Shown here: in pieces, positions 12,687 through 38,543 of the stretch
Layout of the letters: each line of letters starts with the position of its first letter
Position numbering within the stretch: the stretch's first letter is position 1
Assembly: GCA_016933535.1 (NCBI GenBank)
Contig: JAFGAS010000068.1
Span: forward strand, 1 to 64,000
Source of the DNA: Candidatus Zymogenaceae bacterium
GTDB taxonomy: Bacteria; Desulfobacterota; Zymogenia; Zymogenales; Zymogenaceae
Length of the DNA: 64,000 nucleotides
Reading direction: 5' to 3'
Made by a program: the position numbers and the translations under genes
The notes under the pieces: model-generated
Told to the model about the DNA's origin: nothing
The model's input: the letters and a program-made list of their open reading frames with translations, nothing else
The model's database searches: none

Positions 12687-12726
12687 ACGGCCGTCTCTGC
12701 AACGCTTTATAGTCCGATTCTTTCCC

Positions 12727-12755: not shown

Positions 12756-12760
12756 CGACA

Positions 12761-14721: not shown

Positions 14722-14750
14722 TTGAAATGGGCGGCACATTTTGATAGAAT
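14722..14750 (+). promoter_or_regulatory. Sigma-70 promoter abutting the first zinc-ribbon/receiver gene
   Basis: TTGAAA (14722-14727) and TAGAAT (14745-14750) have 17-bp spacing. The ATG at 14759 is only eight bases beyond the -10 box, so the message would have a leader of 0-2 nt, and there is no ribosome-binding site. This is another leaderless candidate. Confidence 0.6.
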
Positions 14751-14758
14751 AAAAAACC

Positions 14759-15577: not shown

Positions 15578-15737
15578 GATGCTTGGCGTATCGGCCGGCC
15601 TCTTCTCAGCCGCACGATCGAAAAAATTCCCCATAAAAAAGACAAAAGAGGGGGATAACTGTTTTTTACGCGTTCGTTGTGTGCTATGATTCGGCCGGTC
15701 TATTGTTCGGTTATTTCCAATTCTCACGCTGTGTGCA

Positions 15738-16424: not shown

Positions 16425-16430
16425 GGTTTC

Positions 16431-16560
16431 CGTCATTGCGAGGGCACGAAGTGCCCGTGGCAATCCCCTGACTGTCACCGTAATTAGAAAACCAGGACGG
16501 GCACGACATGTCGTGCCCCTACGGCTATATACGCGAATCTGGTTAGTACCCGTAGGGGCC
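16431..16560. repeat. Dispersed intergenic repeat: CATTGCGAG start plus GGGCACGACATGTCGTGCCC hairpins
   Basis: This intergenic stretch begins CGTCATTGCGAG, runs through ATCCCCTGACTGTCACCGT, then a palindrome GGGCACGACATGTCGTGCCC and a related arm GTAGGGGCCACATATATGTGGCCC. The phrase ATCCCCTGACTGTCACCGT recurs near 56791, again followed by a GGGCGGCATATGTGCCGCCC palindrome. It is a multi-copy, hairpin-forming repeat without coding capacity. The ORFs drawn over it are shadows. Confidence 0.6.
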
Positions 16561-16584
16561 ACATATATGTGGCCCGTCTCTGCC

Positions 16585-16706
16585 ATCATCGCGAGCCCCC
16601 TCTATGGGGGCGTGGCGATCTCGGACCGTGATACATATAACAACACGATTACATGTTGTTACGCGTACGAGATTGCCACGGTCGCTGTCGCTGCCTCGCA
16701 ATGACA
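16585..16706. repeat. About 120-bp imperfect inverted repeat element (copy A of a pair with 52378-52493)
   Basis: The element starts ATCATCGCGAGC, ends CTCGCAATGAC, and is roughly an inverted repeat (GGCGTGGCGATCTCG near the left, CGAGATTGCCACG near the right). A diverged copy occurs at 52378-52493 with the same order of landmarks (GATCTCGGA, TGATACATAT, CGAGATTGCCACG). It resembles REP/MITE-like elements that carry CATTGCGAG termini. No transposase is nearby. Confidence 0.6.
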
Positions 16707-16843
16707 GAGGGACGTGTTTACTCCCGGAGGGGCGCCATTCATGCCGCCCGGTTTTGTTTCCGATGAGCAGAGCTTACTATTGTACAGACATCTTTTTTAT
16801 GTTATAAAAACAATAGGTTCACTATAGAAGTCAGGAATAGCAT

Positions 16844-18034
16844 ATGGCAAAGAAAAGCGAAAAACAGCCGGTCGGGACAACGCCGCCCGAAAACCCGACA
16901 ATTCCGGCGACAACCTCAATGACCCTTATCAATATCGGGGCGGCCGTGGGATTGGCGGTGCTGTTCGTCGTGGTCATGCAGGCGATGGGGTCCATCCTCA
17001 AACCGTTTTTCATCGCCATCTTCCTTTCCATCCTCATATACCCCGCGGTTGCCTTACTCGTCCGCTTTAAGGTGCCGAGGTTTATCGCCTACTTCGTGGT
17101 ATTTGGGGCCATCGTCGGTGTCATCTACGTCCTGGGGATCCTGGTCTCCATCAACGTCTCGGCCTTCGTCGAGCGGCTCCCGTTTTACGAAACGCGGCTG
17201 ACCACTATCACGGAACAGGCCCTCATGCTGATACAGCGCATGATAACCTTTGACCGCTGGGGGCTGACAAAGGGTATCGATCTTACCGCGATCGATCCCT
17301 TCCAGTATATCTCGCTTCCCAAGATCACGTCGTATATTGGGGCGAGCCTTGGCTCGGTGTTCGATATCGTCGGGGTGGTCTTCGTTATCCTCTTTTTCAT
17401 GGTCTTTATCCTCATGGAGGCCGACCGCATTCCCGCGCGCGTGACGTGGGCCTACGGCGAGGCCAACGCCCCGGAGATCCTGGCCGTGGCCGACGATATC
17501 AATACGAGCGTCATGAAATACCTCTGGGTAAAGACGCTCATCAACATCGCCACGGGGCTTTTGACGGCCCTGGTCCTGGGGATCGGCGGGATTGACTTTT
17601 TCATCCTCTGGGGCATCATGGCCTTTGTCCTCAACTACATCCCATACGTCGGCTCCATCTTCGCGGTGGGTTTTCCCTTCCTGATGGCCCTGGTCCAGAT
17701 ATCACCCCTGGGGGCTCTGGTGATCCTGTTGTGCCTGATTGTCGTTCATTTTTCGCTGGGCAATTTCATCGAGCCGAAGGTTATGGGGCGGGAGTTGAAT
17801 CTCTCGCCGCTGGTGGTGCTGATCTCGCTGGCCTTCTGGGGGTGGCTCTGGGGCTTTATCGGGATGGTGCTGGCCATCCCCATCACGGCCACCATAAAGA
17901 TCGTCATGGAGCATATCCCGGCCACCCGTAACCTCGCGCGCTTTATGAGTGACGTGCTGGAGCTGCCCGCCGAGCGCCCCCCCCGGCGCCGGATCCCCAT
18001 TTTCTCGCTGCTGCAGAGGACCAAAAGAGGATGA
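16844..18034 (+). CDS. AI-2E family transporter (UPF0118), copy 1 of 3
   Basis: The 396-aa polytopic protein has the family pattern: two N-terminal helices with ILKPFFIAIFLSILIYP, a central soluble segment, and a C-terminal half with LNYIPYVGSIFAVGFP, LGNFIEPKVMGRELNLSPLVVLIS and FWGWLWGFIGMVLAIPITATIKI, which is the diagnostic end of this family. Members export small molecules (AI-2 in E. coli TqsA) or act as ion antiporters; the substrate here is unknown. It is followed by two further paralogs on the same strand (gaps 55 and 77 bp), so the three are likely one transcript. Confidence 0.88.
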   Translation: MAKKSEKQPVGTTPPENPTIPATTSMTLINIGAAVGLAVLFVVVMQAMGSILKPFFIAIFLSILIYPAVALLVRFKVPRFIAYFVVFGAIVGVIYVLGILVSINVSAFVERLPFYETRLTTITEQALMLIQRMITFDRWGLTKGIDLTAIDPFQYISLPKITSYIGASLGSVFDIVGVVFVILFFMVFILMEADRIPARVTWAYGEANAPEILAVADDINTSVMKYLWVKTLINIATGLLTALVLGIGGIDFFILWGIMAFVLNYIPYVGSIFAVGFPFLMALVQISPLGALVILLCLIVVHFSLGNFIEPKVMGRELNLSPLVVLISLAFWGWLWGFIGMVLAIPITATIKIVMEHIPATRNLARFMSDVLELPAERPPRRRIPIFSLLQRTKRG

Positions 18035-18089
18035 AGCGGCCGCTGAGCGTAATCGGAAACCATCGATAACCTGTCTGTTGTGATACATA

Positions 18090-19274
18090 ATGACCGAGCA
18101 CCAAAATGAGTCTGATCGGGCGGAGCGACCCACGGCCGAACGCCGGCTCATCCCGTATCAGAAATTTACCGCCGTCGGGATCGGGGTGATCCTGGCGGTG
18201 GTCCTCGTGATCGCGCTGAGGGCGTTGGGCTCGATCCTCAAACCGTTCTTGATAGCTGTCTTCTTCTGTATCCTGATCTCGCCGGTCGAGCGGCTGCTCG
18301 TGCGTATCAAGATCCCGCGCCTTGTCGCCTACCTCCTTATCTTCAGCGCCGCGATCACGGCGGGCTTCTTCATGGGAAAGCTCATCTCGTTCAACGTCCG
18401 GGCCTTCTCCAACGAACTTCCCGTCTACGAGGAGACCATCCAGGGGCAGATCGAACGGCTGGACAAATCCATCCAGAACGTGGAAATCCTCAGGGAATTC
18501 GGTGTCACCGAGGAGTTCAACCTGAGGGAACTGGTTACCTCCGGCTATTTCTCGGCCGAGAGGCTCAAGGCGATTGTTAACAGGAGCATCGGTTCGTTAT
18601 TTTCGCTGGTCGGCAACACGCTGGTGGTGTTTCTCCTGATGATCTTCATCCTGCTGGAAACGGACCACTTCCCCGGGCGGGTTGTCTACGCCTATGGAGA
18701 GGCGCGATCGGGCAAGATCCTCAATGTGGCGCGGACCATCGTCGGGGACGTCATGAAGTACCTGACGATCAAGACCCTGATAGCCGTCGTTACGGGTTTT
18801 GTCTTTACGGGTTTACTGGGGGCCTGCGGGGTCGAATTTTTCGTGCTCTGGGGGGTCTCGGCCTTTGTGCTCCATTTCATCCCGTATATTGGCTCCTACC
18901 TCGCGGTGCTGCTGCCGGTGGCAATGGTCTTTATCCAGTTTTCACCGGAGGCGTCGGCGCTGATGCTGGGGATCCTCGTTGTCGTCCAGTTGGTGCTCGG
19001 CAGCTACCTGGAGCCGCGGGTTATGGGAAGGGAGTTGAAGCTTTCCCCGCTCTTCATCGTGCTGGCCCTGGCCTTTTGGGGATGGGTGTGGGGGATTGTC
19101 GGGGTGTTTCTGGCCGTTCCGATCACGGCGACGATCAAGATCGTCATGGAGAACTTCTCCGGCACCCGCGGCATCGCCCGGCTCATGAGCGACGTCACCG
19201 GAAGGACGCTCAGAAAAAAGAGGGACGTCTTGCCGAAAGGCAAGCGAGGCCGCCGGCCGGTAACAACGACCTGA
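18090..19274 (+). CDS. AI-2E family transporter (UPF0118), copy 2 of 3
   Basis: The 394-aa middle copy has the same landmarks: GSILKPFLIAVFFCILISP, LHFIPYIGSYLAVLLP, LGSYLEPRVMGRELKLSPLF and FWGWVWGIVGVFLAVPITATIKI. The C-terminal tail is long, basic and divergent (RTLRKKRDVLPKGKRGRR), as it is in the other copies, which may set folding or partner choice. The variable part is the periplasmic or cytoplasmic domain between helices 2 and 3 (about residues 110-190), where the copies differ most. Confidence 0.88.
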   Translation: MTEHQNESDRAERPTAERRLIPYQKFTAVGIGVILAVVLVIALRALGSILKPFLIAVFFCILISPVERLLVRIKIPRLVAYLLIFSAAITAGFFMGKLISFNVRAFSNELPVYEETIQGQIERLDKSIQNVEILREFGVTEEFNLRELVTSGYFSAERLKAIVNRSIGSLFSLVGNTLVVFLLMIFILLETDHFPGRVVYAYGEARSGKILNVARTIVGDVMKYLTIKTLIAVVTGFVFTGLLGACGVEFFVLWGVSAFVLHFIPYIGSYLAVLLPVAMVFIQFSPEASALMLGILVVVQLVLGSYLEPRVMGRELKLSPLFIVLALAFWGWVWGIVGVFLAVPITATIKIVMENFSGTRGIARLMSDVTGRTLRKKRDVLPKGKRGRRPVTTT

Positions 19275-19351
19275 AACCGTCGGGAATTCGGGGGATCGTG
19301 CATAATCGGGTCAGAAATAAGAAGTCGTCTTTCGTTTCATGGAGATAGGCA

Positions 19352-20569
19352 GTGAGAGAAATAAAGAGAAAAAGCACGGGCGGGCGGCGGGAACAGTCGC
19401 CGTTCGACTACGTTACATCGGACCTGGGCATCATCAAGATCGGGATGACGGTGATCCTTGCGGTCATCGCCGTTTTCGTGCTTAAGACCCTTGGCCCGAT
19501 CCTCAAGCCGCTTCTGATCGCGATCTTTCTGTACGTCCTTATCTGCCCCATTGAGCAGTTCCTCATGCGGATCAAGGTGCCGCGTTTTGTTGCCTACGTG
19601 CTCATCTTCATCGCGTTGTTTATCGTCGGTTTTTTCCTGGGCAAGCTTATCTCATATAACGTCAAATCGTTCATGGAAAAGCTCCCGATCTACGCGCATT
19701 CGATTCAACGGATGATAGCGGGATTTACGGTCTGGATCGGCGGGACGAACTTTCTTGGGGAAATCGGGGTAGACTGGATCCCGGCCGATTTGCCGATATC
19801 GGCGTCCACGATAAACAGGGTCCTCCGGGAGTACGCCGCCCGGGGTATCGGGTCCGTGTTCGGTTTGGTGGGCACCCTGTTTCTGATATTTTTTCTTATG
19901 GTCTTTATTATACTGGAAGTCGAGCAGTTCAGTCCAAGGGTAATCTACGCCTATGGTAAGAGGAGGTCCAATAGAATCCTCAGGGTCATAAAGGCCGTAA
20001 ATCGGGACGTGAGGAAATACCTGGTCATCAAGACGGCGCTGGCCACGGTGGACGGGATTATCTTTGCACTGCTGTTGTGGGCCTGCGGGGTGGAGTTCTC
20101 CATCCTTTGGGGAGTATCGGCCTTCATGCTTTTTTTCATCCCTTACGTCGGGGTTCATGTGGCGATTCTGCTGCCCGTCCTCATGGTGCTTGTGCAGTTC
20201 TCCGGGGCAGCGGCGCTGCTGATGCTCGTGGTCCTGGGCATCATCCAGATCCTTATGGGCAACTACGTGAGCCCGCGGATCATGGGCAAGGGGCTCAACC
20301 TCTCTCCGCTCGTTATCCTTTTCTCGCTGACTTTTTGGGGATGGCTGTGGGGGGTAGTGGGGGTTTTCATGGCGATACCGATAACCGCGACGATCAAGAT
20401 CATTATGGAGGATACCCATTCAACGCGCAAAACAGCCCGGCTCTTGGGTACCGAATGCGAGCAGGCGCCCATCCCGAGCGTCGAGGAGCGATGGAAGGCG
20501 GTTATCGACAAGCGAAAGGGCAAGCGGGGCGTATCCTCCAGGCAAGGGGCGCCCGAAAAGAAACGATAA
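19352..20569 (+). CDS. AI-2E family transporter (UPF0118), copy 3 of 3
   Basis: The 405-aa third copy begins at a GTG (19352) six bases after GGAGATAG and retains LGPILKPLLIAIFLYVLICP, LFFIPYVGVHVAILLP, MGNYVSPRIMGKGLNLSPLVI and FWGWLWGVVGVFMAIPITATIKI. The N-terminus is more basic and the C-terminal tail longer (EERWKAVIDKRKGKRG) than in its neighbours. It ends 12 bp before the convergent PLP-enzyme gene; I see no hairpin terminator in that gap. Confidence 0.87.
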   Translation: MREIKRKSTGGRREQSPFDYVTSDLGIIKIGMTVILAVIAVFVLKTLGPILKPLLIAIFLYVLICPIEQFLMRIKVPRFVAYVLIFIALFIVGFFLGKLISYNVKSFMEKLPIYAHSIQRMIAGFTVWIGGTNFLGEIGVDWIPADLPISASTINRVLREYAARGIGSVFGLVGTLFLIFFLMVFIILEVEQFSPRVIYAYGKRRSNRILRVIKAVNRDVRKYLVIKTALATVDGIIFALLLWACGVEFSILWGVSAFMLFFIPYVGVHVAILLPVLMVLVQFSGAAALLMLVVLGIIQILMGNYVSPRIMGKGLNLSPLVILFSLTFWGWLWGVVGVFMAIPITATIKIIMEDTHSTRKTARLLGTECEQAPIPSVEERWKAVIDKRKGKRGVSSRQGAPEKKR

Positions 20570-23759: not shown

Positions 23760-23788
23760 TTGACAAAAGGCGATATCGTTGTTATTTT
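23760..23788 (+). promoter_or_regulatory. Sigma-70 promoter of hrcA-grpE-dnaK-dnaJ
   Basis: TTGACA (23760-23765) and TATTTT (23783-23788) are 17 bases apart. The predicted start site falls at the left edge of the CIRCE operator, the standard arrangement for HrcA repression. Confidence 0.7.
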
Positions 23789-23794
23789 TAAATA

Positions 23795-23821
23795 TTAGCA
23801 CTCTTATATGCGGAGTGCTAA
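23795..23821 (+). promoter_or_regulatory. CIRCE operator upstream of hrcA
   Basis: TTAGCACTC-TTATATGCG-GAGTGCTAA is a perfect match to the CIRCE consensus (9-bp arms, 9-bp spacer). HrcA binds it and represses the chaperone operon until heat shock. It lies 23 bases before the hrcA start, so HrcA should regulate its own gene. Confidence 0.97.
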
Positions 23822-23844
23822 AAGCGTATGGGGAGAGCAATGGT

Positions 23845-24882
23845 ATGGAGATAGAACTCAGCAACAGGGCAAAAACCGTCCTCTTTACCATAATAACGGA
23901 CTTCATCAGGACCGGTGATCCGGTCGGCTCACGGACGATATCCAAGAGAGGGGCACTGGACGTCTCTCCGGCCACGATACGCAATATTATGGCCGACCTT
24001 GAAGAGATCGGACTGCTGGTCCAACCCCACACCTCCGCGGGACGCGTTCCCACCGAACGCGCATACCGTTTCTACGTGGACAGCCTCGTCAAGGTTTCCG
24101 ACCTGACGACCTCCGAAGAACGGATGATAGAGAAGAACCTGAATCCGCCGTCGAGGGAATTCAAGGACGTGGTCAGGGAGACTTCCCGGGTGCTTTCCGA
24201 GATGTCCCGATGCGTTTCCATGGTCAGCACCCCCGGCTTTTCTGAGACACAATTCAAATATATCGATTTCGTGAGACTTTCGGAAAACAGGATCCTGGCT
24301 ATCCTCGTATCGAAAACCGGCATGATATATAACAAGCTGATCAGGGTCGAGGAAGAATTCAACCAGGAGAAACTTGCCTGGATGTCACGCTATCTCAACG
24401 ACATCCTCTCGGAACTTACGCTCAAAGACGTCAGACGCAAGATTATCCAGGAAATGCGAAGCGAAAAGAACCTCTATGATAATATCCTCATGAATGCCCT
24501 GAAAATGTCCCGGAACCTGTTTGATGCCGAAATTATCGATGACGAGCTTTTTATAGAGGGAAGCACCTATATCTTCGACTACCCGGAATTTACCGAGATC
24601 TCCAGGATGAAAGAGATATTCAAGACCTTTGAGAATAAGAATAATTTGATTAAATTACTTGATAAGGTGACGCGAGCCGACGGTGTAAAGGTGTATATTG
24701 GTTCCGAGACCAACATCCAGACCATGAGAGACTGTACTCTCGTGGCCTCACCGTACCGTAAAGAAGGCAATATTCTCGGAAGCATCGGTGTTATCGGTCC
24801 CACACGGATGGACTATGCGAAGGTAATACCGATCGTCGATTTTACCGCGCACCTGATCACGAGACTGCTGGATGAGGAGTAA
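23845..24882 (+). CDS. hrcA: Heat-inducible transcription repressor HrcA
   Basis: The N-terminal winged helix reads MEIELSNRAKTVLFTIITDF...TGDPVGSRTISKRG and includes SPATIRNIMADLEEIGLL (recognition helix) and PHTSAGRVPTERAYRFYVD, the best-known HrcA signature. The rest is the GAF-like dimerisation region ending IGPTRMDYAKVIPIVDF. Length is 345 aa, usual for the family. I use the ATG at 23845; the track start at 23779 would place the N-terminus over the promoter and CIRCE. The gene heads the chaperone cluster, and grpE starts seven bases later. Confidence 0.97.
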   Translation: MEIELSNRAKTVLFTIITDFIRTGDPVGSRTISKRGALDVSPATIRNIMADLEEIGLLVQPHTSAGRVPTERAYRFYVDSLVKVSDLTTSEERMIEKNLNPPSREFKDVVRETSRVLSEMSRCVSMVSTPGFSETQFKYIDFVRLSENRILAILVSKTGMIYNKLIRVEEEFNQEKLAWMSRYLNDILSELTLKDVRRKIIQEMRSEKNLYDNILMNALKMSRNLFDAEIIDDELFIEGSTYIFDYPEFTEISRMKEIFKTFENKNNLIKLLDKVTRADGVKVYIGSETNIQTMRDCTLVASPYRKEGNILGSIGVIGPTRMDYAKVIPIVDFTAHLITRLLDEE

Positions 24883-24889
24883 CCGGATC

Positions 24890-25642
24890 ATGGCAGACAA
24901 GGAAAAGAAGAAGCACTCCACCGAACCGGTCAAAGAAGGCTATACCGATGAGGTGTCTCCGGAAGCGATAGACAGGACGGTATCGGAGATCGAAAATGCC
25001 GATTCGGATAATAACGAAAACGTGATGACCGAAAAAGCCGCTGCCGACGGCCGATCCGACGCCAAGAGGGGATCGGAAGAGATTCAGGATGAGCTCGACA
25101 AGGCGCGCGCCCAGGCCAAGGAAATGTACGAACGATATCTTCGATCGGCGGCCGACCTGGATAACTATAGAAAACGAATGACAAAGGAGGCGCAAGAAAG
25201 CCGGAAGTTCGCCAATGAAGAGCTGATCAAGGCGCTCATCCCGACCGTCGATAACCTTGAGCGAGCGCTTGCCCACAGCGAGGGAAGCTCCGATTCGGGG
25301 GCGTTTTTGGAGGGGATTAAGATGGTCCATAAGCAGTTCATGGATACCCTTGAAAAATTCGGCGTTGAGCAGATTGATTCTCTCGGCAAACCGTTTGATC
25401 CTAATTTCCATCAGGCCCTTATGCAGGTCAAAACGGACGAATTCCCTCCCAACACCGTTGTCTCCGAGGTCACGAAGGGGTACCTGCTTGCCGGCCGCCT
25501 CGTCAGACCGTCGATGGTTGGCGTTTCCGTACGTGAAGGACAGCAGCCCGCCCAGGGATCACCCTGGGGTGATGAGGATTTCCACAAAGAGGAAGACGTC
25601 CCCGATAAGAATAACGGGGATACGATAGATGACGAAGAATAA
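24890..25642 (+). CDS. grpE: Nucleotide exchange factor GrpE
   Basis: The 250-aa protein has a long acidic N-terminal tail, a coiled-coil (about residues 65-130, with YLRSAADLDNYRKRMTKEAQ) and the C-terminal beta domain (FDPNFHQALMQV, TVVSEVTKGYLLAGRLVRPSMVGVS), the GrpE signature. It releases ADP from DnaK. The ATG at 24890 (MADKEKKKHS) is preceded by GAGGAG; the track start at 24872 is less likely. A C-terminal acidic extension (EDVPDKNNGDTIDDEE) is somewhat long. It lies between hrcA and dnaK in one operon. Confidence 0.96.
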   Translation: MADKEKKKHSTEPVKEGYTDEVSPEAIDRTVSEIENADSDNNENVMTEKAAADGRSDAKRGSEEIQDELDKARAQAKEMYERYLRSAADLDNYRKRMTKEAQESRKFANEELIKALIPTVDNLERALAHSEGSSDSGAFLEGIKMVHKQFMDTLEKFGVEQIDSLGKPFDPNFHQALMQVKTDEFPPNTVVSEVTKGYLLAGRLVRPSMVGVSVREGQQPAQGSPWGDEDFHKEEDVPDKNNGDTIDDEE

Positions 25643-25679
25643 ATATAGGAATGCATCCCGAGGATAAAGGAGGAAGGAG

Positions 25680-27623
25680 ATGTCAAAGGTTATCGGAATA
25701 GATTTGGGGACGACTAATTCTTGTGTAGCTGTCATGGAGGCCGGTGAGTCCAAGGTGATCACGAACTCCGAGGGCAGCCGCACCACTCCCTCGGTGGTTG
25801 CCTTTACCGACAGCAACGAGCGGATCGTGGGTCAGGTCGCCAAGAGACAGGCCATTACCAACCCCGAACGCACGATATATGCCGTTAAGCGACTGATCGG
25901 CAGGAAATATGGGGACCCGGAGGTACAGAAGGATATAAAGGTCTGCTCCTATAAGATCACGAGGGCGTCCAATGATGACGCTCAGGTTACCGTCGGGGAT
26001 AAGAACTACAGCCCCGCGGAAATATCGGCGATGATTCTTACCAAGATGAAGCAGACCGCTGAAGACTACCTCGGGCAACCGGTTACGGACGCGGTCGTTA
26101 CCGTCCCCGCGTACTTCAATGACAGCCAGCGTCAGGCCACTAAAGACGCCGGGAGGATTGCCGGGCTCAACGTGCTCAGGATCATCAACGAGCCGACGGC
26201 GGCCTCGCTGGCCTACGGGCTGGATAGGAAGAAGGATGAAAAGGTCGCCGTCTTTGACCTTGGGGGAGGGACGTTTGACATTTCAATCCTTGAACTCGGA
26301 GACGGTGTCTTCGAGGTCAAGTCGACCAACGGCGACACCCATCTTGGCGGAGAGGATTTCGACCAGAACATCATCGAATACCTTGCCGATGAATTCAAGA
26401 AGGATCAGGGGATCGACCTGAGGGGGGATAAGATGGCGCTCCAGCGGCTCAAGGAGGCCGGCGAGAAGGCGAAGATGGAGCTGTCTACCTCCATGGAGAC
26501 CGATATCAACCTCCCGTTTATCACGGCCGACAGCGCGGGCCCCAAACATCTGAACATAAAGCTGACCCGGGCCAAACTCGAGGCATTGGTCGACAACCTC
26601 ATCCAGAAACTCGACGGCCCGTGCCGTACGGCAATAAAGGACGCGGGGATGTCCTCGGCCGATATTAACGAGGTTATCCTCGTTGGCGGTATGACCCGCA
26701 TGCCCAAGGTTCAGCAAAAGGTCAAAGAGATCTTCGGCAAAGAACCCCATAGGGGTGTCAATCCCGACGAAGTCGTGGCTATGGGGGCGGCGATCCAGGG
26801 TGGGGTGCTCAGGGGCGAGGTGAAAGATGTACTGCTCTTAGACGTTACGCCGCTGTCACTGGGCATCGAGACCCTCGGCGGGGTCTCCACAAAGCTCATC
26901 GAGAAAAACACCACCATTCCCACCAAGAAGAGCCAGGTATTCTCCACCGCCGCCGACAGCCAGACGGCCGTCTCAATCCATGTGCTGCAGGGGGAGCGGG
27001 ATATGGCCTCCGACAACAAGACGATCGGTAGATTTGACCTGGTCGGCATACCGCCGGCGCCCCGCGGTATTCCCCAGATCGAGGTCACCTTTGATATCGA
27101 CGCCAACGGGATCATGCATGTCTCCGCCAAGGATCTCGGTACCGGCAAGGAGCAGTCGATCAGGATAACGGCATCCAGCGGCCTCTCAGAGCAGGAAATA
27201 CAGCAGTTCATAAAAGACGCGGAATCACATGCCGAAGAGGATAAGAGTAAACGGGATCTGGTCGAGGCGCGCAACGCGGCCGACGGACTGGTATATACCA
27301 CCGAAAAATCGCTCGCTGAATTTTCAAGCAAGCTCGACCCGGCGGCCAAGTCCGAGGTGGAGAGTGCGCTGGCGAAGGTGAAAAAGGAGATGGAGGGGAC
27401 CGACAGTGAGGCCATCAAGTCGGCCACCGAAGAGCTTACCAAGGCGGCGCACAAACTGGCCGAGATGATCTATGCCCAGGCGGCATCAAGCGCCGGCCCG
27501 CAGGGGCCCGAGGCGGGGGCGGGGCCGGGGCCGGAAGACGCACCGGGGCAGGGCGGCTCCGGGCCGAAACCCGGGGACGGGGACGACGTTGTTGACGCCG
27601 ATTTCGAAGAAGTCAAGAAATAG
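25680..27623 (+). CDS. dnaK: Chaperone protein DnaK (Hsp70)
   Basis: The 647-aa product is full length: ATPase domain with [29 protein letters not shown] and [14 protein letters not shown], the interdomain linker [14 protein letters not shown], a substrate-binding beta sandwich, and a helical lid. The C-terminus is Gly/Pro/Ala-rich and ends [13 protein letters not shown], the usual conserved tail. An AAAGGAGGAAGGAG ribosome-binding site lies just upstream. It works with GrpE and DnaJ encoded on either side, and the operon is under CIRCE control. Confidence 0.99.
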
Positions 27624-27823
27624 CGAATCATCTCGATATGGTTTTCGTCGACAAGATACTGATTGTACGGATCGGGGATATCGGCATTAGACCGTCGATG
27701 AAGATCGTGTGCTCCCGATGTATCAACTCAACACGTTGAGCGACCAACGGACGATTTATTATCATTATATTGCGCGGATAGTAAACGTATCCGCACGGCC
27801 GTAAGAGGGGAGAGGAGACAACG

Positions 27824-28936
27824 GTGGAAAAAGCCGACTACTACGATATACTCGGCGTTCAGAAAAATATCGGCCAGGAAGAGATAAAGAAGGCATACCG
27901 AAAACAGGCCCTTAAGTATCACCCGGATAAGAACGCCGGGGATAAAGCAGCCGAAGAACGGTTCAAAGAGATCAACGAGGCTTATGTCGTCCTTTCGGAC
28001 CCCGAAAAGCGGGATCTCTACGACCGCTACGGTCACGCGGCCTTCTCGGGCGGTGGGGCCGATGGATTTCGCGATTTCGATTTCGGTTTCCGTGGATTCG
28101 AGGATATCTTTTCGGATGTCTTCGGTGATATCTTCGGCATGGGCCGCAGGGGAGGCCGCGGCGCCCGCGGAACGGACCTGCGGTACAACCTTACCATTGA
28201 TTTTACCGAGGCGGTCTTCGGCGTGGAGGCAAAGATCCAGGTGCCGCGGCATGAGGCCTGCGCGGCATGCGGCGGCAGCGGGGCCGAGCCGCCCACGAAA
28301 CCCGAGACCTGCCCAGCGTGCCGGGGTACAGGACAGATCAGAACCCAGCAGGGCTTCTTTGCCGTTTCGCGAACGTGCTCCCATTGTCGCGGAACGGGCA
28401 GGTTTATCAAGAGTCCCTGCAAAGAATGCCGGGGCTCCGGGAAGATGAAGAAGACCAGGACCCTTACGGTCAAGGTTCCGCATGGTGTGGAGATGGGGAC
28501 CAGGCTCAGGCTTTCCGGAGAAGGAGAAAACGGCAGCGGAGGGGCCCCGCCTGGTGACCTCTATGTGGTTATCGAGGTCAAACCGCATAAGATTTTCGAG
28601 CGAGAGGGAAACGACATCATTGTCATCGTCCCGATCACGTTTCCGGAGGCGGCGCTTGGCGCCGACATAGAAGTGCCGACGATCGAGGGTCTGGTGAAGA
28701 TGAAGGTAAAACCCGGAACACAATCGGGGGAGACGCACATCATCAGGGGTAAGGGAGTCCCCCATCTTTCGGGCTATGGCCGCGGCGATCAGCACGTCAT
28801 TGTTCGTGTAGAGACACCCAAGAAATTAAGTCGTCGGCAACGAGATATCCTCGAAGAGTTCTCGCGGGAGAGTCGAGCCGAGACACACCCTGAAACCCGG
28901 GGATTCTTCGAAAAGGTAAAGGAGATATTCCAATAG
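27824..28936 (+). CDS. dnaJ: Chaperone protein DnaJ (Hsp40)
   Basis: The 370-aa protein has a J-domain with the HPD tripeptide ([10 protein letters not shown]), a Gly/Phe-rich stretch ([18 protein letters not shown]), four zinc-finger repeats ([32 protein letters not shown]), and the C-terminal substrate-binding domains. It starts at a GTG with GAGAGGAG upstream. It stimulates DnaK ATPase and delivers clients. The 200-bp gap after dnaK is larger than elsewhere in the operon and contains a short palindrome (CTCAACACGTTGAG), so it may have an extra promoter. An antisense ORF covering most of it is a shadow. Confidence 0.98.
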
Positions 28937-31585: not shown

Positions 31586-32440
31586 TTATTCCTGCAGGCC
31601 CGCCCACTGTTCAATGGCGGGATTCTTTCTCAGCTTTTTGAGGGCGCCTTCTTCAATTTGACGGATTCGCTCACGGGAGATGCCGAAGGTATCGGCAATA
31701 TCTGCCAACGTCTTGGGCTTGGTCGCCATTATCCTGTGTTGAATGATATAGGTTTCCTTTTCATTCAACAGGTTCAGGGCCTTTTTGATATCCGTCTTGA
31801 GCCGGGCCGTCTCCTGCTCATCGATCAGGGCAGCTTCCTGGGATGGATCCTCCGAGACGAAATCGATATAGGTTGCATCCTCGCCTTCTTTGACGGCGGT
31901 GTTCAGCGAGAGATCGCGGCCCGAGAGCCTGCCGTTCATGTCCCGGACCTCCCGGTACTTCACGTGAAGGGTATCGGCGATGGCGCCGATATCTTCGTCC
32001 GTAGGGGCGTCAATCCCGAGTTTCTTCTTGACCTGTCCCATCTTGTAGAAAAGCTTCTTCTGCGCCTGGGTCGTGCCGATCTTCACAAGGCTCCACGACT
32101 TGATGATAAAGTTCTGGATATAGGCCCTGATCCACCATACCGCGTATGAGATAAGCCGGAAGCCTTTTTGCGGATCGAACTTCTTGACGGCCTGCATGAG
32201 ACCGATATTACCTTCCTGGATAAGGTCCATGATCTTGAGGCCGTAATCGGAGTATTCATAGGCGACCTTGACCACAAAGCGGAGGTTTGATACGACCAGC
32301 TTATGGGCCGCTTCGATATCACTGTTTTCCCGCCACCTCACGCCAAGGTCGTATTCCTCTTCTTTTGTGAGGAGGGGAAATCTATTTATCTTATGAATAT
32401 AGAGCGTCAGGGCGCTCGTTTTTTCTGGCAGCATTTTCAT
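31586..32440 (-). CDS. rpoH: RNA polymerase heat-shock-type sigma factor (RpoH/sigma-32 family)
   Basis: From the ATG at 32440 the protein is 284 aa, like E. coli RpoH. Region 2 is intact (HKLVVSNLRFVVKVAYEY, DLIQEGNIGLMQAVKKFDPQ, FRLISYAVWWIRAYIQNFII), followed by the RpoH-box-like TQAQKKLFYKMGQVKKKLG, and region 4 ends with TLADIADTFGISRERIRQIEE. There is no region 1.1. The start is set by AAAGGAGA upstream; the longer track ORF begins inside the CIRCE operator. A sigma-70 promoter and CIRCE precede the gene, so HrcA probably represses it. The QKKLF motif and length favour RpoH; other group 2/3 sigma factors are the alternative. Confidence 0.9.
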   Translation of the reverse strand: MKMLPEKTSALTLYIHKINRFPLLTKEEEYDLGVRWRENSDIEAAHKLVVSNLRFVVKVAYEYSDYGLKIMDLIQEGNIGLMQAVKKFDPQKGFRLISYAVWWIRAYIQNFIIKSWSLVKIGTTQAQKKLFYKMGQVKKKLGIDAPTDEDIGAIADTLHVKYREVRDMNGRLSGRDLSLNTAVKEGEDATYIDFVSEDPSQEAALIDEQETARLKTDIKKALNLLNEKETYIIQHRIMATKPKTLADIADTFGISRERIRQIEEGALKKLRKNPAIEQWAGLQE

Positions 32441-32499
32441 TCCCAATCTCCTTTCGTGCCTTTTCGGGGTATATGTGGAATCGTTCATACCCCGGTTTG

Positions 32500-32526
32500 T
32501 TAGCACTCGATCCTAATGAGTGCTAA
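32500..32526 (-). promoter_or_regulatory. CIRCE operator upstream of the RpoH-type sigma gene
   Basis: TTAGCACTC-GATCCTAAT-GAGTGCTAA matches the CIRCE consensus perfectly in both arms. It lies directly after the -10 box of the sigma gene and 60 bases before its ATG. A divergent patatin gene starts 160 bp away on the other side, but its own promoter is distant, so the sigma gene is the likely target. Confidence 0.96.
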
Positions 32527-32554
32527 TTATACCTCGTAAAGATAATGAAATCAA
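32526..32554 (-). promoter_or_regulatory. Sigma-70 promoter of the RpoH-type sigma gene
   Basis: On the minus strand TTGATT and a perfect TATAAT are separated by 17 bases. The last base of the -10 box is the first base of the CIRCE operator, so bound HrcA would block the start site. Confidence 0.82.
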
Positions 32555-32601: not shown

Positions 32602-32628
32602 TTGACATAGAGTCCCTATTAGTATACA
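32602..32628 (+). promoter_or_regulatory. Candidate promoter of the patatin gene
   Basis: TTGACA (32602-32607) is followed after 15 bases by TATACA, or after 17 by TACATT. The leader would be about 50 nt. It lies in an AT-rich stretch with an inverted repeat TAGTATA...TATACTA just beside it. Confidence 0.5.
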
Positions 32629-32685
32629 TTACTTCTTATATACTAATTAAGATGAAGAAATAAGAGAAACGTTTCATCCCTAAAA

Positions 32686-33660
32686 ATGAGATTCTTCAAG
32701 AAAAATATTACATCACCCTTTGACTACCGGACGCTGTATAAGTATCTTCCCGATAGGTACCGCCTCAAGGTCGGGCTGGCCCTCGGCAGTGGCGGTGCCC
32801 GGGGATTGACCCATCTGGGAGTAATCAGTGCCCTGACGTCTGCGGGGGTAAAAATCGACTTTGTTTCGGGGACGAGCGTGGGGGCGCTCGTCGGCGCGTT
32901 TCTTGCGGCCGGAAAGCTCGATGATCTCATCGCGTTCACAGCCCCCCTCACGCTCAAAGAGTCGCTGAAGATGGCCGACATCATGTTCCCCACCAGCGGA
33001 CTTATCGAGGGAAAGAAGATCGAGCAATTCCTCCGTAAACACCTCGGTACCGTGAAGATCGAAGATTTGCCGGTTCCTTTTGCGTGCGTCGCGACGAATT
33101 TCTATACCGGACAAGAAGTGCTTATAAACAGGGGCGATCTTGTGACGGCCGTGCGGGCCTCCATCTCAATCCCTGGTGTATTCAAGCCGGTCGCCGCCGA
33201 TGGCATGCTCCTGGTGGACGGAGGTGTGGTAAATCCGGTGCCGGTCCAGGTAGTCAGGGACCTCGGTGCCGAATTCATCATTGCCGTAGATATCAGCCCG
33301 GAAATCGCCAATAAAATGACGGTCCAACACCCTATTATCGATCCGGGCCAAGGGAGCGGGAAATCCAGAAAGGGAGAGGCCAGACTGCCCAATATTTTCG
33401 ACATTATTATGGGATCGATCATGATCATGGAATCCCAGATCGTCGATATGCGTATGAAGACCGAGTTGCCCGATGTCATCATAAGTCCGTCGGTATCCGA
33501 CATCGGAACATACGATTTTCATCGCTATCGGGAAGGGGTAGAACGGGGAGAATCCGCAGCGGGTCAGGTTATTTCTCAGATAAGGAAATACATCGGCCTG
33601 TATCGAAACATATCACAACAGAAGTCGGGGGGAAGGCGCCCCGACGGTATATTAACGTAG
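32686..33660 (+). CDS. Patatin-like phospholipase (NTE/RssA family)
   Basis: The 324-aa protein has the full patatin set: oxyanion loop LALGSGGARGLTHLG (about residue 30), nucleophile elbow VSGTSVGALVGAF (Ser near 64), and the catalytic Asp in LLVDGGVVNPVPV. It has no signal peptide or clear transmembrane helix and should hydrolyse lipids or lysophospholipids at the cytoplasmic face of the membrane. The C-terminal third (about 220-324) is variable and basic. It is followed after 43 bp by the diadenylate cyclase gene on the same strand, so they may be co-transcribed. Confidence 0.88.
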   Translation: MRFFKKNITSPFDYRTLYKYLPDRYRLKVGLALGSGGARGLTHLGVISALTSAGVKIDFVSGTSVGALVGAFLAAGKLDDLIAFTAPLTLKESLKMADIMFPTSGLIEGKKIEQFLRKHLGTVKIEDLPVPFACVATNFYTGQEVLINRGDLVTAVRASISIPGVFKPVAADGMLLVDGGVVNPVPVQVVRDLGAEFIIAVDISPEIANKMTVQHPIIDPGQGSGKSRKGEARLPNIFDIIMGSIMIMESQIVDMRMKTELPDVIISPSVSDIGTYDFHRYREGVERGESAAGQVISQIRKYIGLYRNISQQKSGGRRPDGILT

Positions 33661-33702: not shown

Positions 33703-34605
33703 ATGATCGGCAAGAAGACAGCGGCAAAAGAGCAGGTGCTCTCGCGGCTTATTATCGAGAGCGCCGGTGATATCGCCCAGCGGATAAAGGCACAAGAGGT
33801 TTTCGTTATCCTGCAAGGACGGGATGACTATGAGCGGACGGCCGATCAGATCAAGAAGTTGAACGCCGTTCCGGTGGTGCGGGGAAAAGAATTCTTCCAG
33901 GAGGTGCTGTCCGTGCACGGCAAGGCCATCAAGGTGCCGGATATCAAGCTCACGCGCATGGGACAGATCAAGGTGGCGGTAATGCTGGCCATGTCCGGAA
34001 GCATCATCAAGCCGGGCGATCGGATCGTCTGCGTGACGGGGGTTGCCTCCTTTGGAAACAACGATTCTATCGTGGTAATCGATACGGGAAAGGAGCTTGA
34101 GATCTTCAGCTCCGCCAATCTGCTGGACATCCCGGATTCAGTCCGTGCGGATGTTTTTGAGACCGTTCTCAAGCTTGCAATGGAGCTGGCCGCCCGGGGC
34201 CGGGAAGGAAAATCCGTCGGGACCATCTTTGTGCTGGGGGACGAGGAGAGGGTATTGCAGCTCTCCCGCCAGCTGATTATCAATCCCTTTAAGGGCTATT
34301 CCGAGGAGGAACTCTCCGTACATGATCCCCAACTCCGGGACGCAATCAAGGAGTTTTCGGCGATTGACGGGGCCTTCGTTATTCGGGGGGACGGGGTTTT
34401 GATCACCGCCGGCAGGCACCTCAACGCCGCCCTCGAGGAAGAGGATATGCCGAAGGGATTGGGAAGCAGGCACGTGGCCGCCGCCGGAATTACCTCTCTG
34501 ACCGAAGCCATCGCCATCGTAATATCCGAATCTGCCGGAACGGTGAGGATATTCAAGAAGGGCAGGGTCTTTATGGAGATCGAGCGGCCCCCGATCGGTG
34601 CGTAG
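33703..34605 (+). CDS. Diadenylate cyclase (DAC domain) with pyruvate-kinase-C-like N-terminal domain
   Basis: The C-terminal half (about residues 160-300) is a DisA_N/DAC domain with both catalytic motifs: DGA in SAIDGAFVIRGDG (222-224) and the RHR-like motif in GLGSRHVAAAGIT (254-257), ending TEAIAIVISESAGTVRIF. It should make cyclic di-AMP from two ATP. The N-terminal half (QEVFVILQGRDDYERTADQ, VAVMLAMSGSIIKPGDRIVCVTG) looks like the pyruvate-kinase alpha/beta domain, an arrangement I associate with archaeal DacZ rather than with CdaA or DisA. There is no membrane segment and no DNA-binding HhH. It lies between patatin and dus genes. Confidence 0.82.
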   Translation: MIGKKTAAKEQVLSRLIIESAGDIAQRIKAQEVFVILQGRDDYERTADQIKKLNAVPVVRGKEFFQEVLSVHGKAIKVPDIKLTRMGQIKVAVMLAMSGSIIKPGDRIVCVTGVASFGNNDSIVVIDTGKELEIFSSANLLDIPDSVRADVFETVLKLAMELAARGREGKSVGTIFVLGDEERVLQLSRQLIINPFKGYSEEELSVHDPQLRDAIKEFSAIDGAFVIRGDGVLITAGRHLNAALEEEDMPKGLGSRHVAAAGITSLTEAIAIVISESAGTVRIFKKGRVFMEIERPPIGA

Positions 34606-34610: not shown

Positions 34611-35546
34611 ATGAAGATCGGTCACCTTGATCTTCGCTCTCGCCTGCTGGCCGCCCCCATGGCCGGCGTCATCGACGTCAGTATGCGCATCCTCCTGATC
34701 CGATACGGGGCGGGCATGGTCTTTTCGGAGATGATCAGTGCGGAGGGCGTCAGGAGAAACCAGAAAGGAAGCACGGCCCTCATAACCTGCCATCCCCAAG
34801 AGTCGCCGTGCGCCGTTCAACTCTTTGGGAGAGACCCGTTGGTCCTTGCCGAGGCCGGCAGGTACGCGCAAGAACGGGGGGCGGCACTGATAGATATCAA
34901 CATGGGGTGCCCGGTTAAAAAGGTCGTCCGTCAGGGGGCGGGGGCGGCGCTCCTCAGAGAGCCGGAGTTGTGTGCACGGATCGTTGACTCGATGGTGCGG
35001 GCGGTAACGCTGCCGGTAACGGCCAAAATCCGTGCGGGATGGGACACAGCTTCGATAAACTATCGTGAGGTCGGCGCCCGGTTGATGGATGCCGGGGCCG
35101 CAGCGGTAATCTTTCATCCACGGACGGCCGTTCAGTTATTTACCGGAGAGGCGGACTGGTCTCTCGTGGGAGATCTGGCCGAATGTCTTCCCCTTCCGGT
35201 AATCGGCAGCGGGGATATCACGAGCCGCCGGCAGGCCTATGAGCGGATCGCCGAGACCGGCGCCGCCTTCGTCATGATTGGGAGGGCCGCCATGGGTCGG
35301 CCCTGGGTCTTTTCATTGGAGGCGCATGAACCGGCTCCACACGATCTCTATCCCATTGTCGGACAACATCGACTGCTCATTGAGGAACTCTATCCGCCGA
35401 GAAAGGCGGTCTCCGTCCTCAAGAGACACTGTGTCTATTATATACGTGGGCTCGCCGGAGCGGCGTCGATGCGGGCAACCCTGATGAAAAGCGAGACCAC
35501 GGATGCTATCATGGCGTTGATGAGCGATTACCTCTTGGGCGATTGA
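34611..35546 (+). CDS. dus: tRNA-dihydrouridine synthase
   Basis: The 311-aa flavoprotein has the Dus TIM-barrel landmarks: LLAAPMAGVIDVSMR at the N-terminus, FSEMISAEGV, the catalytic Cys in DINMGCPVKKVVRQGAGAAL, TAKIRAGWD, FHPRTAVQLFTGEADW and GSGDITS...FVMIGRAAMGRPW. It reduces uridine to dihydrouridine in the tRNA D-loop using FMN and NADPH. The overall pattern is DusB-like. It begins five bases after the diadenylate cyclase stop, so it is in the same operon. Confidence 0.93.
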   Translation: MKIGHLDLRSRLLAAPMAGVIDVSMRILLIRYGAGMVFSEMISAEGVRRNQKGSTALITCHPQESPCAVQLFGRDPLVLAEAGRYAQERGAALIDINMGCPVKKVVRQGAGAALLREPELCARIVDSMVRAVTLPVTAKIRAGWDTASINYREVGARLMDAGAAAVIFHPRTAVQLFTGEADWSLVGDLAECLPLPVIGSGDITSRRQAYERIAETGAAFVMIGRAAMGRPWVFSLEAHEPAPHDLYPIVGQHRLLIEELYPPRKAVSVLKRHCVYYIRGLAGAASMRATLMKSETTDAIMALMSDYLLGD

Positions 35547-35556: not shown

Positions 35557-36915
35557 ATGCAACAGACTCTCGAATCTCAATCAGCCAAACAGGCGGTGAT
35601 TTTTCAGTTGGCCGACGATGCCGCGCGGGCAGTTACGGAGACACTGGAGGGACAAAGAATCACGGTCGGCCGGGAATCGCATCTGGTCGATCTGCGCCGC
35701 ATTCTGAAGACGGATCGCCCGGATTATCTCTTTATCGGATCATCGTATCTTCTCAAACGGGGGGAAGCCCTCTTGGCTTCGATTAAAAAGGGCCGACCCG
35801 ACATTCCGATTATCATCGCCGTTACCGGGAAGGATCGGGAGCGCCTCCTGCCGATGCTCGGATCCCACGTTTCCGGATTTCTCCACGAGCCCTACTACCA
35901 GAAAGAAATACTCTTTGTCCTTTCGTCGGCCGGCCGGATGATCGATACGGAGATAAGGAACAAGATCGCCCAGCAATTAGCGACAAACCTCGGTAATCCC
36001 CACAAGGTCTTCATAGGGAGGTCTCGCAACGCCCAGCAGGCGCGCAGGGATACAATAGCGGCCCGGAAGGGAAGCGGTCATGTCCTGTTTATCGGGGAGA
36101 GCGGAACGGGAAAGACGCAGCTGTCATTCTGCGTCCACCTGAAACCGGGGCGTTTCCTGGCTCCCCTGAGCCTTTACGATCCGCTCGTTGACCTGAAGAA
36201 GAAGAGACGAAGCGTCTCCCCGTTTGATGATGCCTATCCTTCGGGAACGTTGATTGTCAAGAACAGCCAGCGTCTTGTGGCACGGGAGGCGCTACTGATC
36301 GAGTCGATGCTCAATAAGGATGTCGGTTCGGGCAGGAAGGCGCCGCGGCTTATTATTCACCACGATCCCTCCCTCGGTATCGATGAACGGTTTGACCGAT
36401 CCCGATTTGCCCACGTGATCCGTATAGAACCCTTGCGGCAGCGTCCCGAAGATATCGGGGCGATATTCGGCTATTACGTGAATAGTCTTTCGGCGGCGCT
36501 CGGCAATCCGCAGGTTTCGATAACCCCCTCGGCACGAAAGATGCTTGTACGCTATTCGTGGCCGAAAAACGTTCGAGATCTCATCGGATTGGTCATTTTT
36601 CTTATGGTCACGGAAAACGGAGGAATGGTCGACCCGCTGTCGCTTCCCGATTTCATCACGCGAACCGACCCCGATCCCTTTGGAAGGCTCTCTCTGGAAA
36701 ACCTTCTCTCATCCAAACTAAAACCCATCGTATCCCAAATGGATCTTAACAAGGTCGAGGGTCTTTACAACATAATCATCGCCCGGGTGGAAATGCCGCT
36801 CATCAAACTGGTACTTGACCGAACCCACCGCAACCAGTCCCAGGCGGCAAAGATACTCGGCATCAACCGGAACACCCTCAAGAAGAAGATCGATGAGTAT
36901 CGGATCGGCAAATAA
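35557..36915 (+). CDS. Degenerate NtrC-like protein: receiver-like, AAA+ without GAFTGA, Fis-type HTH
   Basis: The 452-aa protein has the plan of a sigma-54 enhancer-binding protein. The N-terminal 130 residues resemble a receiver (RPDYLFIGSSYLL, IIAVTGKDRERLLPM) but the phospho-acceptor Asp is replaced. The AAA+ domain has a good Walker A (FIGESGTGKTQLS, 180-187) and an R-finger-like end (YSWPKNVRDLIGLV). Walker B is eroded (GTLIVKNSQRL) and the sigma-54 loop GAFTGA is absent. The C-terminus is an intact Fis-like HTH (RNQSQAAKILGINRNTLKKKI). It is probably a DNA-binding protein that does not activate sigma-54. It starts ten bases after dus. Confidence 0.78.
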   Translation: MQQTLESQSAKQAVIFQLADDAARAVTETLEGQRITVGRESHLVDLRRILKTDRPDYLFIGSSYLLKRGEALLASIKKGRPDIPIIIAVTGKDRERLLPMLGSHVSGFLHEPYYQKEILFVLSSAGRMIDTEIRNKIAQQLATNLGNPHKVFIGRSRNAQQARRDTIAARKGSGHVLFIGESGTGKTQLSFCVHLKPGRFLAPLSLYDPLVDLKKKRRSVSPFDDAYPSGTLIVKNSQRLVAREALLIESMLNKDVGSGRKAPRLIIHHDPSLGIDERFDRSRFAHVIRIEPLRQRPEDIGAIFGYYVNSLSAALGNPQVSITPSARKMLVRYSWPKNVRDLIGLVIFLMVTENGGMVDPLSLPDFITRTDPDPFGRLSLENLLSSKLKPIVSQMDLNKVEGLYNIIIARVEMPLIKLVLDRTHRNQSQAAKILGINRNTLKKKIDEYRIGK

Positions 36916-36999: not shown

Positions 37000-37581
37000 A
37001 TGGATCCGGTTATACGGGACGCGTTTATCGATTCTGCCCAGATTAAGACAAAATTCGCAGAGACATATGAAAAGAAGATCGACGAGGTAGCCGAACTGAT
37101 CGTCAAGGCCTTCAAGGCGGGCAATAAAGTGTTGTTGTTTGGAAACGGGGGGAGCGCGGCCGACTGTCAGCATATTGCGGCCGAATTCGTCAATCGTTTC
37201 AAGATAGACCGACCCCCTTTGCCGGCTATTGCCCTGACGACCGACACGTCGATCATCACGAGCATCGGTAACGATTTTGACTTTTCCGATATTTTTGTAA
37301 AACAGATTAAGGCCATCGGGACCAAGGGCGATATCGCCGTGGCTATCAGCACGAGCGGCAGGTCACCTAATATTACCAAGGCCCTGGATGCGGCCGCGAA
37401 GCTTGACATCATCACGGTCCTCTTTACCGGTGGGGACGGGGGGGCCGCCCTCGAAATGGCAGGGTATGTGTTTGTCGTCCCTTCGAATAGCACACCGCGG
37501 ATTCAGGAGGTGCACATCGTCCTCGGGCATGTCTTGTGCGAGCTGGTGGACAATAAGCTTTTCCCGGGTGCAGCCGCATGA
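37000..37581 (+). CDS. gmhA: Phosphoheptose isomerase (sedoheptulose-7-phosphate isomerase)
   Basis: The 193-aa SIS-domain protein carries the GmhA motifs: LLFGNGGSAADCQHIAAEFVNRF, ALTTDTSIITSIGNDF, AISTSGRSPNITKAL and IQEVHIVLGHVLCELVD with the active-site His residues. It turns sedoheptulose-7-phosphate into D-glycero-heptose-7-phosphate, the first step to the heptose of the lipopolysaccharide inner core. Length and motifs are standard. A consensus promoter sits upstream, and the last four bases overlap the start of the next gene. No other heptose genes are visible nearby. Confidence 0.95.
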   Translation: MDPVIRDAFIDSAQIKTKFAETYEKKIDEVAELIVKAFKAGNKVLLFGNGGSAADCQHIAAEFVNRFKIDRPPLPAIALTTDTSIITSIGNDFDFSDIFVKQIKAIGTKGDIAVAISTSGRSPNITKALDAAAKLDIITVLFTGGDGGAALEMAGYVFVVPSNSTPRIQEVHIVLGHVLCELVDNKLFPGAAA

Positions 37582-38543
37582 CCAGACGTGAGCCTATTGC
37601 CCTGGATTTATCGAGGATAAGGACTTATTCCCTGATGGATCGTACGAGCAAGGTAACGGTGGCCGATTTTGCCCGCCCGCCGGCGGTTGGACTAACGATT
37701 GGGGAGTTCATCGAGGGGCTGGGGAAAATCCTTGCCGCCGGGGACCTTAGGACGGTGATCGGGGCGGTTGTGAGAGCGGTTGAAGCCGGGCGGCCGGTAA
37801 TGGCCGCCATGGGCGCCCACGTTATCAAGGTGGGCCTTTCTCCCCTCATTATCGATCTTATGGAACGGGGAATCATCAGCCTGGTGGCCCTCAACGGCGC
37901 GGGAATCATACACGATTTTGAGCTGGCCTACGCCGGGTTCACCTCGGAAGACGTGGATACGGTCCTTGACGGTGGGGCATTCGGAATGGCCCGGGAGACG
38001 TCCCAATTTCTCAACGAGGCGGTCCGTGAAGGGGCGGGCAATGGTCAGGGCATCGGGCGTGCCGTTGGAGCGATGATCGAACAAAAGGGTCTTCCCTATC
38101 GTCAGCACAGCATCCTGGCGGCGGGGGTAAGGCTCGGCATTCCCGTAACGGTGCATGTGGCGCTCGGAACGGATATTATCCATATGCACCCGGATGCTTC
38201 CGGGGAGGCGATCGGCAAGGGATCGCTTATCGACTTTCACACGTTTGCCTCGGCAGTGGCCGGTCTTTCGGGAGGTGTCTACTTAAATATCGGTTCGGCG
38301 GTGATACTGCCGGAGGTCTTCCTCAAGGCGATCTCACTGGCACAAAACGTGGGTGCGACTATCGAGGACTTCACGACGGTCAATATGGATTTTATCCGCC
38401 AGTACCGTCCCCAGACGAATGTGGTAAGACGGCCGACGGCGAAAACGGGAAGGGGTATTACGCTGATCGGCCATCACGAGATTATGGTGCCGCTGGTCTG
38501 CGCGGGGATTATCGATGCCCTCGGGACACGGAAAAACAAATAA
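37578..38543 (+). CDS. Deoxyhypusine-synthase-like protein
   Basis: The 321-aa product fits the deoxyhypusine-synthase fold by eye: GAHVIKVGLSPLIIDLMERG, LNGAGIIHDFELAYAG, GIPVTVHVALGTDIIHMHP, and a C-terminal GITLIGHHEIMVPLVCAGII that lines up with the end of eukaryotic DHS. The catalytic Lys that carries the aminobutyl group in true DHS is not in an obvious equivalent place (only TAKTGRG near the end). Bacteria have no eIF5A, so another NAD-dependent reaction is likely. It overlaps gmhA by four bases, so it is translated with it. The family call is moderate; function is unknown. Confidence 0.5.
   Translation: MTRREPIALDLSRIRTYSLMDRTSKVTVADFARPPAVGLTIGEFIEGLGKILAAGDLRTVIGAVVRAVEAGRPVMAAMGAHVIKVGLSPLIIDLMERGIISLVALNGAGIIHDFELAYAGFTSEDVDTVLDGGAFGMARETSQFLNEAVREGAGNGQGIGRAVGAMIEQKGLPYRQHSILAAGVRLGIPVTVHVALGTDIIHMHPDASGEAIGKGSLIDFHTFASAVAGLSGGVYLNIGSAVILPEVFLKAISLAQNVGATIEDFTTVNMDFIRQYRPQTNVVRRPTAKTGRGITLIGHHEIMVPLVCAGIIDALGTRKNK

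Follow-up and report, generated by a model that had tools for sequence, protein, structure and literature searches.

We found that the gene dacZ in the window (the whole 64,000-nucleotide stretch of Zymogenaceae DNA that was analysed) most probably encodes a soluble bacterial DacZ that makes cyclic di-AMP (c-di-AMP), is the sole diadenylate cyclase (DAC) found in its genome and stands in the role of CdaA. We put the probability of this whole reading at roughly 0.88. Coordinates are collected in Table 1.

Table 1. Features of the dacZ locus and EIIA-carrying relatives of DacZ.
Feature	Position	Strand	Remarks
hrcA-grpE-dnaK-dnaJ heat-shock block	23779..28936	+	hrcA by Pfam; grpE, dnaK and dnaJ from sequence and homologues in related loci
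rpoH, heat-shock sigma factor 32	31586..32506	-	TIGR02392 340.7 bits, cutoff 323.1
Perfect CIRCE (HrcA) operator	32500..32526		rpoH / patatin-dacZ intergenic region
Sigma70-type promoter for rpoH, TTGATT-17-TATAAT	32526..32554	-	-10 abuts CIRCE
Sigma70-type promoter for the patatin-dacZ-dusB operon, TTGACA-17-TACATT	32602..32630	+	TTGACA and spacing kept across loci
Patatin-like phospholipase	32686..33660	+	42 bp gap to dacZ; carries GTSVG and DGG motifs; best NCBIfam match RssA, sub-cutoff
dacZ, DacZ-type diadenylate cyclase, 300 aa	33703..34605	+	N-terminal DacZ_P/PK_C-fold domain about residues 1-140; C-terminal DAC 163-288; from profiles, alignment and AlphaFold
N-terminal domain of the dacZ product, DacZ_P (PF21755), pyruvate-kinase C-domain fold	33703..34131	+	Profile and structure matches
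DAC catalytic domain of the dacZ product (PF02457)	34189..34566	+	DGA residues 222-224, RH 256-257
dusB, tRNA-dihydrouridine synthase	34611..35546	+	TIGR00737 304 bits, above cutoff; 5 bp after dacZ
NtrC-like protein	35557..36915	+	Weak receiver, weak AAA core, intact lid domain, Fis-type HTH
GSU2086 family protein	37578-38543		Scores 424 bits against a cutoff of 250; weak resemblance to deoxyhypusine synthase; downstream of gmhA
EIIA-DacZ proteins	L068:7503-8849, L070:7545-8888, L071:7527-8843, L072:2869-4251, L073:4552-5886, L076:7209-8522		

Domain architecture of DacZ

The dacZ reading frame starts with an ATG that has a GGAAAG-type ribosome-binding sequence upstream. Consistent with the original prediction of a C-terminal DAC domain carrying a DGA motif, a Pfam profile search matched PF02457 at 77 bits (E 1.1e-21, cutoff 27). 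The same search matched the N-terminal half to DacZ_P, which Pfam labels a "probable sensor domain", at 44 bits (residues 17-133), above the cutoff. This domain was matched by 50 of the 53 aligned bacterial family members. The N-terminal half had been expected to be a pyruvate-kinase C domain (PK_C, PF02887), and at the level of the profile it is not, the match reaching 13 bits, below the cutoff; across the family, PK_C was detected by sequence at E<=0.01 in 12 of 53 members. The expectation did hold for the fold. When the N-terminal domain was modelled alone (pLDDT 87.9), its 50 best PDB matches in Foldseek were all pyruvate kinases, with TM scores by query of up to 0.69, and in this predicted structure the N-terminal half is PK_C-like. 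The AlphaFold model of the full-length protein had a pLDDT of 85.7, and its DAC half matched crystal structures of CdaA/DacA.

The NCBIfam model for haloarchaeal DacZ (NF041371) aligned with residues 31-294 at E 6.8e-46, and its score of 156.8 bits lies far under the equivalog cutoff of 430, as expected for a non-haloarchaeal member. The CdaA model (TIGR00159) scored 35.8 bits against a cutoff of 188.8 and covered only the C-terminal core (residues 222-289, E 5e-9), and the DisA model (NF010009) scored 18.8 bits against a cutoff of 201, the DAC domain here being C-terminal. The protein had also been described as lacking the membrane helices of CdaA and the helix-hairpin-helix (HhH) of DisA, and both descriptions are correct: no membrane helix was found in DacZ (maximum 19-residue Kyte-Doolittle mean 1.53), and no HhH family matched it in the Pfam profile search. 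Thus profile, alignment and predicted-structure evidence agree on a DacZ-like family and layout.

Gene neighbourhood and heat-shock genes

The original prediction placed the gene between a patatin lipase and a tRNA-dihydrouridine synthase, and this is true of the window, but the context is confined to Zymogenaceae; the neighbour that crosses families is rpoH. The patatin gene upstream of dacZ is kept in loci L013, L019 and L022. dusB, which lies beside dacZ only in Zymogenaceae loci, is probably co-transcribed with it, and the NtrC-like gene downstream of dusB, conserved within the family, is a probable member of the same operon; the AAA core of its product is probably degenerate. The Zymogenaceae order reads hrcA-grpE-dnaK-dnaJ ... 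rpoH(-), then patatin-dacZ-dusB-NtrC-like-gmhA-GSU2086-like, the genes left of patatin being documented in those cases in which a contig or fetched stretch reaches them. In Syntrophia the order is rpoH(-) followed by dacZ-clpB. A divergent rpoH adjoins the dacZ side in 17 loci including the window, and it is the sole tested window neighbour common to Zymogenaceae and Syntrophia. Of 14 Syntrophia-type loci, 13 have clpB directly 3' of dacZ and the contig of the 14th ends too early; one Nitrospinota-labelled contig also has clpB in this place. In L026 clpB begins 11 bp after dacZ and matches TIGR03346 at 1351 bits. Neither rpoH nor clpB adjoins dacZ in spirochaetes and planctomycetes. No earlier report of the rpoH-dacZ neighbourhood was found in the open-access literature searched. 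Elsewhere in the window, positions 8948-20569 hold runs of similar adjacent ORFs. One is a pair of lipoprotein-like genes (8948-9910 and 9980-10969); the other comprises three membrane proteins that resemble one another (16844-18034, 18090-19274 and 19352-20569).

The conserved proximity of dacZ to rpoH, and in Syntrophia also to clpB, suggests that c-di-AMP and proteostasis may be connected. One possible explanation is that dacZ is a true heat-shock gene, with a shared CIRCE or sigma32 driving the patatin-dacZ operon so that protein misfolding raises c-di-AMP. The close clpB genes of Syntrophia would fit this explanation, as would the CIRCE between rpoH and the operon. This operator, TTAGCACTC-N9-GAGTGCTAA, occurs in perfect form there and before hrcA (23795-23821), and allowing as many as two mismatches revealed no further copy in the genome; with as many as three allowed, 0.01 sites would be expected by chance in the window. 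The site between rpoH and the operon is identical in a related genome, G001, and has one mismatch in another, G002. In both of these genomes we also observed a third CIRCE on another contig, perhaps that of groESL.

However, the CIRCE abuts the -10 box of the promoter of rpoH, a gene whose true start is probably downstream of the listed GTG, and the operon has its own TTGACA promoter about 75 bp downstream of the CIRCE. The TTGACA box, with a spacing of 16-17 bp, is conserved in 16 of 17 rpoH-dacZ intergenic regions, and no CIRCE was found in the Syntrophia loci. Nor did a convincing sigma32 consensus stand out between rpoH and dacZ: two loci (L019 and L028) reached P<=0.04 against shuffled sequences, the rest did not. 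In Geobacter sulfurreducens, too, rpoH is preceded by a CIRCE, with no stated link to a DAC gene (PMC545781). Given this precedent, the position of the operator and the separate promoter of the dacZ operon, rpoH is the probable target of HrcA; HrcA might also affect dacZ, but there is no indication that it does. Because the operon has its own sigma70-type promoter, dacZ is more likely a constitutive neighbour of rpoH than a heat-shock gene, which we consider an unlikely identity for it. We are equally doubtful of a wider proposal, in which an rpoH-dacZ-clpB module and an HrcA operator would couple DacZ activity to the heat-shock response of Zymogenaceae and Syntrophia, and the PK_C domain would sense a metabolite that reports energy or proteotoxic stress. 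Nevertheless, the conserved rpoH-dacZ(-clpB) neighbourhood raises a concrete hypothesis, that c-di-AMP is tied to heat shock, and cultured Syntrophia would allow a test of it.

Catalytic residues and sole-DAC status

Residues D222, G223, G252, G254, R256 and H257 are invariant across the 53 aligned bacterial family members, and A224 is kept in 51 of them. The predicted RHR-like motif was correct in its first two residues, but the motif reads R256-H257-V258, and the third position is I, A, L, M, V, S, Q or T among the 53 proteins and R in none. The single R at this site among the aligned loci is that of L017. The 864-aa frame of L017 was considered as a fusion and rejected, its extra N-terminal stretch being an open-frame extension ahead of a plausible start. 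The alignment with two haloarchaeal proteins annotated as DacZ, both encoded on Haladaptatus plasmids, spans nearly the full length, and their identity to the window's protein is about 32%; DGA and RH are common to both sides, and about 20 or more other columns are conserved.

The loss of the third motif residue, which is R in CdaA, could mean that the product is a catalytically dead receptor or regulator with a DAC fold. This seems very improbable: the conserved columns extend to haloarchaeal DacZ, a type shown to be active in Haloferax volcanii (PMC6741144), and a dead enzyme would be the only DAC in genomes of a phylum that nearly always has one. Judged from its sequence, DacZ looks catalytically competent.

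The window's genome, which is 89% complete, contains one DAC. A second could therefore be missing here, yet two 99%-complete Zymogenaceae genomes (G001 and G002) also contain one DAC each, at an E value typical of DacZ (about 1e-23). In the phylum, a DAC was found in 180 of 197 genomes, mostly at about 1e-40, and these scores indicate that most phylum DACs are CdaA-like. The simplest reading is that DacZ has replaced CdaA in Zymogenaceae. This uncultured deltaproteobacterial family thus appears to rely on soluble DacZ alone, in a phylum that usually has CdaA-like enzymes. Seven other genomes (G010, G047, G108, G132, G167, G170 and G195) also contain one DAC each, with E values in the DacZ range (about 1e-21 to 1e-23) and not near 1e-40; DacZ_P was confirmed in G010 and G047 only.

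The patatin gene and a possible role in anti-phage defence

Patatin and dacZ are adjacent and probably co-transcribed, and PADLOC models for DAC and phospholipase effectors match them. The DS-2 system, which combines a phospholipase with a cGAS-like enzyme and a DAC, protects E. coli against phage (PMC13092281) and offers a precedent for reading the two genes as a CBASS-like pair, in which infection would induce c-di-AMP and the patatin would then degrade the membrane. However, RssA is by far the best fit to the patatin (2.1e-62, against 0.029 for the CBASS_lipase model and 6.7e-5 for the DS-2 phospholipase), and the patatin is absent from dacZ loci outside Zymogenaceae. There is no CD-NTase or other defence gene among the annotated ORFs near dacZ, and membership of CBASS or DS-2 is not supported. 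Furthermore, the block is syntenic in three genera and sits between heat-shock and housekeeping genes, unlike a defence island. A defensive role is very unlikely for the pair, and a DacZ that serves as the general c-di-AMP synthase in place of CdaA is strongly preferred.

Distribution and origin of DacZ

A scan of bacterial and archaeal genomes returned 56 relatives of DacZ, all bacterial; the query was a single sequence, and archaeal members were therefore not expected among the matches. The relatives come from Zymogenus, Smithella/Syntrophaceae and other "Deltaproteobacteria", with Syntrophia included, and from Nitrospinota, Phycisphaerae, Sedimentisphaerales, Spirochaetota and Chitinivibrionia. 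Most of them are contigs of metagenome-assembled genomes (MAGs), some perhaps misbinned. In Methanocaldococcus jannaschii, DacZ_P gave a match under the cutoff only.

That the Zymogenaceae lineage recently acquired its dacZ from archaea by horizontal transfer is just as improbable as the defensive reading: the best characterised homologues are archaeal and the similarity to haloarchaeal DacZ runs full length, but in a quick tree 58 bacterial sequences from several phyla are split from the two haloarchaeal ones by a long, fully supported branch, the window's DacZ nests with its own family (100%) inside the bacterial set, and identity to the haloarchaeal proteins is low. The phylogeny with archaeal DacZ called for at the outset thus yields a deep bacterial group well apart from archaeal DacZ as sampled by these two sequences.

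The surprise expressed in the original prediction, that an archaeal DacZ should occur in a bacterium, did not survive. The layout is widespread in bacteria, and Braun et al. 2019 (PMC6741144) had already placed the DacZ/CdaZ family, with its PK_C-like N-terminal fold, in some of them. Bacterial DacZ is therefore an already known enzyme type, as much bacterial as archaeal, with an N-terminal domain curated in Pfam, and the novelty lies in its context, as sole DAC and as a neighbour of rpoH.

In spirochaetes and a Chitinivibrionia MAG, a PTS EIIA domain (PF00359) is added N-terminally to DacZ, in six of six members of one clade (Table 1). Five of the six retain the His of the AIPH/AFPH motif, and this arrangement, as read from the sequences, suggests that PTS phosphorylation may control c-di-AMP synthesis in these proteins.

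c-di-AMP partners and proposed mechanism

In Firmicutes, RCK_C domains are c-di-AMP receptors and PgpH is a c-di-AMP hydrolase. The suggested search of the genome for phosphodiesterases and receptors turned up family-level candidates for both: a PgpH-like protein with 7TMR-HDED, 7TM and HD domains and an intact HD motif, and three RCK_C proteins, namely a TrkA-type protein beside TrkH, a CPA2-type antiporter and a K+ channel. A search of the genome for the ydaO riboswitch gave no match. It is plausible that PgpH and the RCK-domain K+ transport proteins complete a c-di-AMP/potassium circuit, although they are suggestive only. PgpH occurs in 129 of 197 phylum genomes, several of them without a DAC, and its presence is weak evidence because it hardly depends on having one; we therefore rejected PgpH/DAC co-occurrence as proof of function. 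Of two DHHA1 matches, the first (C48) is an alanyl-tRNA synthetase and not GdpP, and the second is a DHH-CBS-CBS-PolyA polymerase protein, a type that the genome encodes. A protein of about 900 aa with the layout DHH-DHHA1-CBS-CBS-PolyA polymerase (L086:846-3554) is possibly a second enzyme related to c-di-AMP or pApA.

In the mechanism that we propose, DacZ would condense two ATP molecules into 3',5'-cyclic di-AMP. By analogy with CdaA and DisA, two DAC domains would meet face to face, with the DGA and RH residues binding ATP. A small metabolite, which as in pyruvate kinase could be phosphorylated, is the probable ligand of the PK_C-fold domain, and the domain would probably set the oligomeric state or the activity of DacZ. 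Going by the families of the candidate partners, c-di-AMP would probably act on the RCK_C potassium-transport proteins and be degraded by the PgpH-like HD phosphodiesterase.

Comparison with known systems

Archaeal DacZ of Haloferax volcanii and Haladaptatus (NF041371; PF19294 and PF02457) resembles the window's protein in being soluble, in joining an N-terminal PK_C-like domain to a C-terminal DAC domain, in co-aligning over its full length and in its DGA and RH motifs. It differs in sequence (about 32% identity) and in its N-terminal domain, which is DACZ_N there and DacZ_P here; the window's protein also scores far under the NF041371 cutoff and falls in a separate group of the tree. CdaZ/DacY of M. 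jannaschii, as described by Braun et al. 2019 (PMC6741144), likewise consists of PK_C and DAC. CdaA (DacA), the usual bacterial DAC, shares the DAC catalytic fold and provides the closest solved structures, but it has N-terminal membrane helices and an RHR motif, and DacZ here has neither. DisA shares only the DAC domain, which is N-terminal in DisA and followed by a C-terminal HhH DNA-binding part that is absent from DacZ. The bacterial DacZ_P-DAC proteins of Pfam (PF21755 and PF02457) have the same domains above the cutoff; nothing essential differs between them and the product of dacZ, which is one more member of this group.
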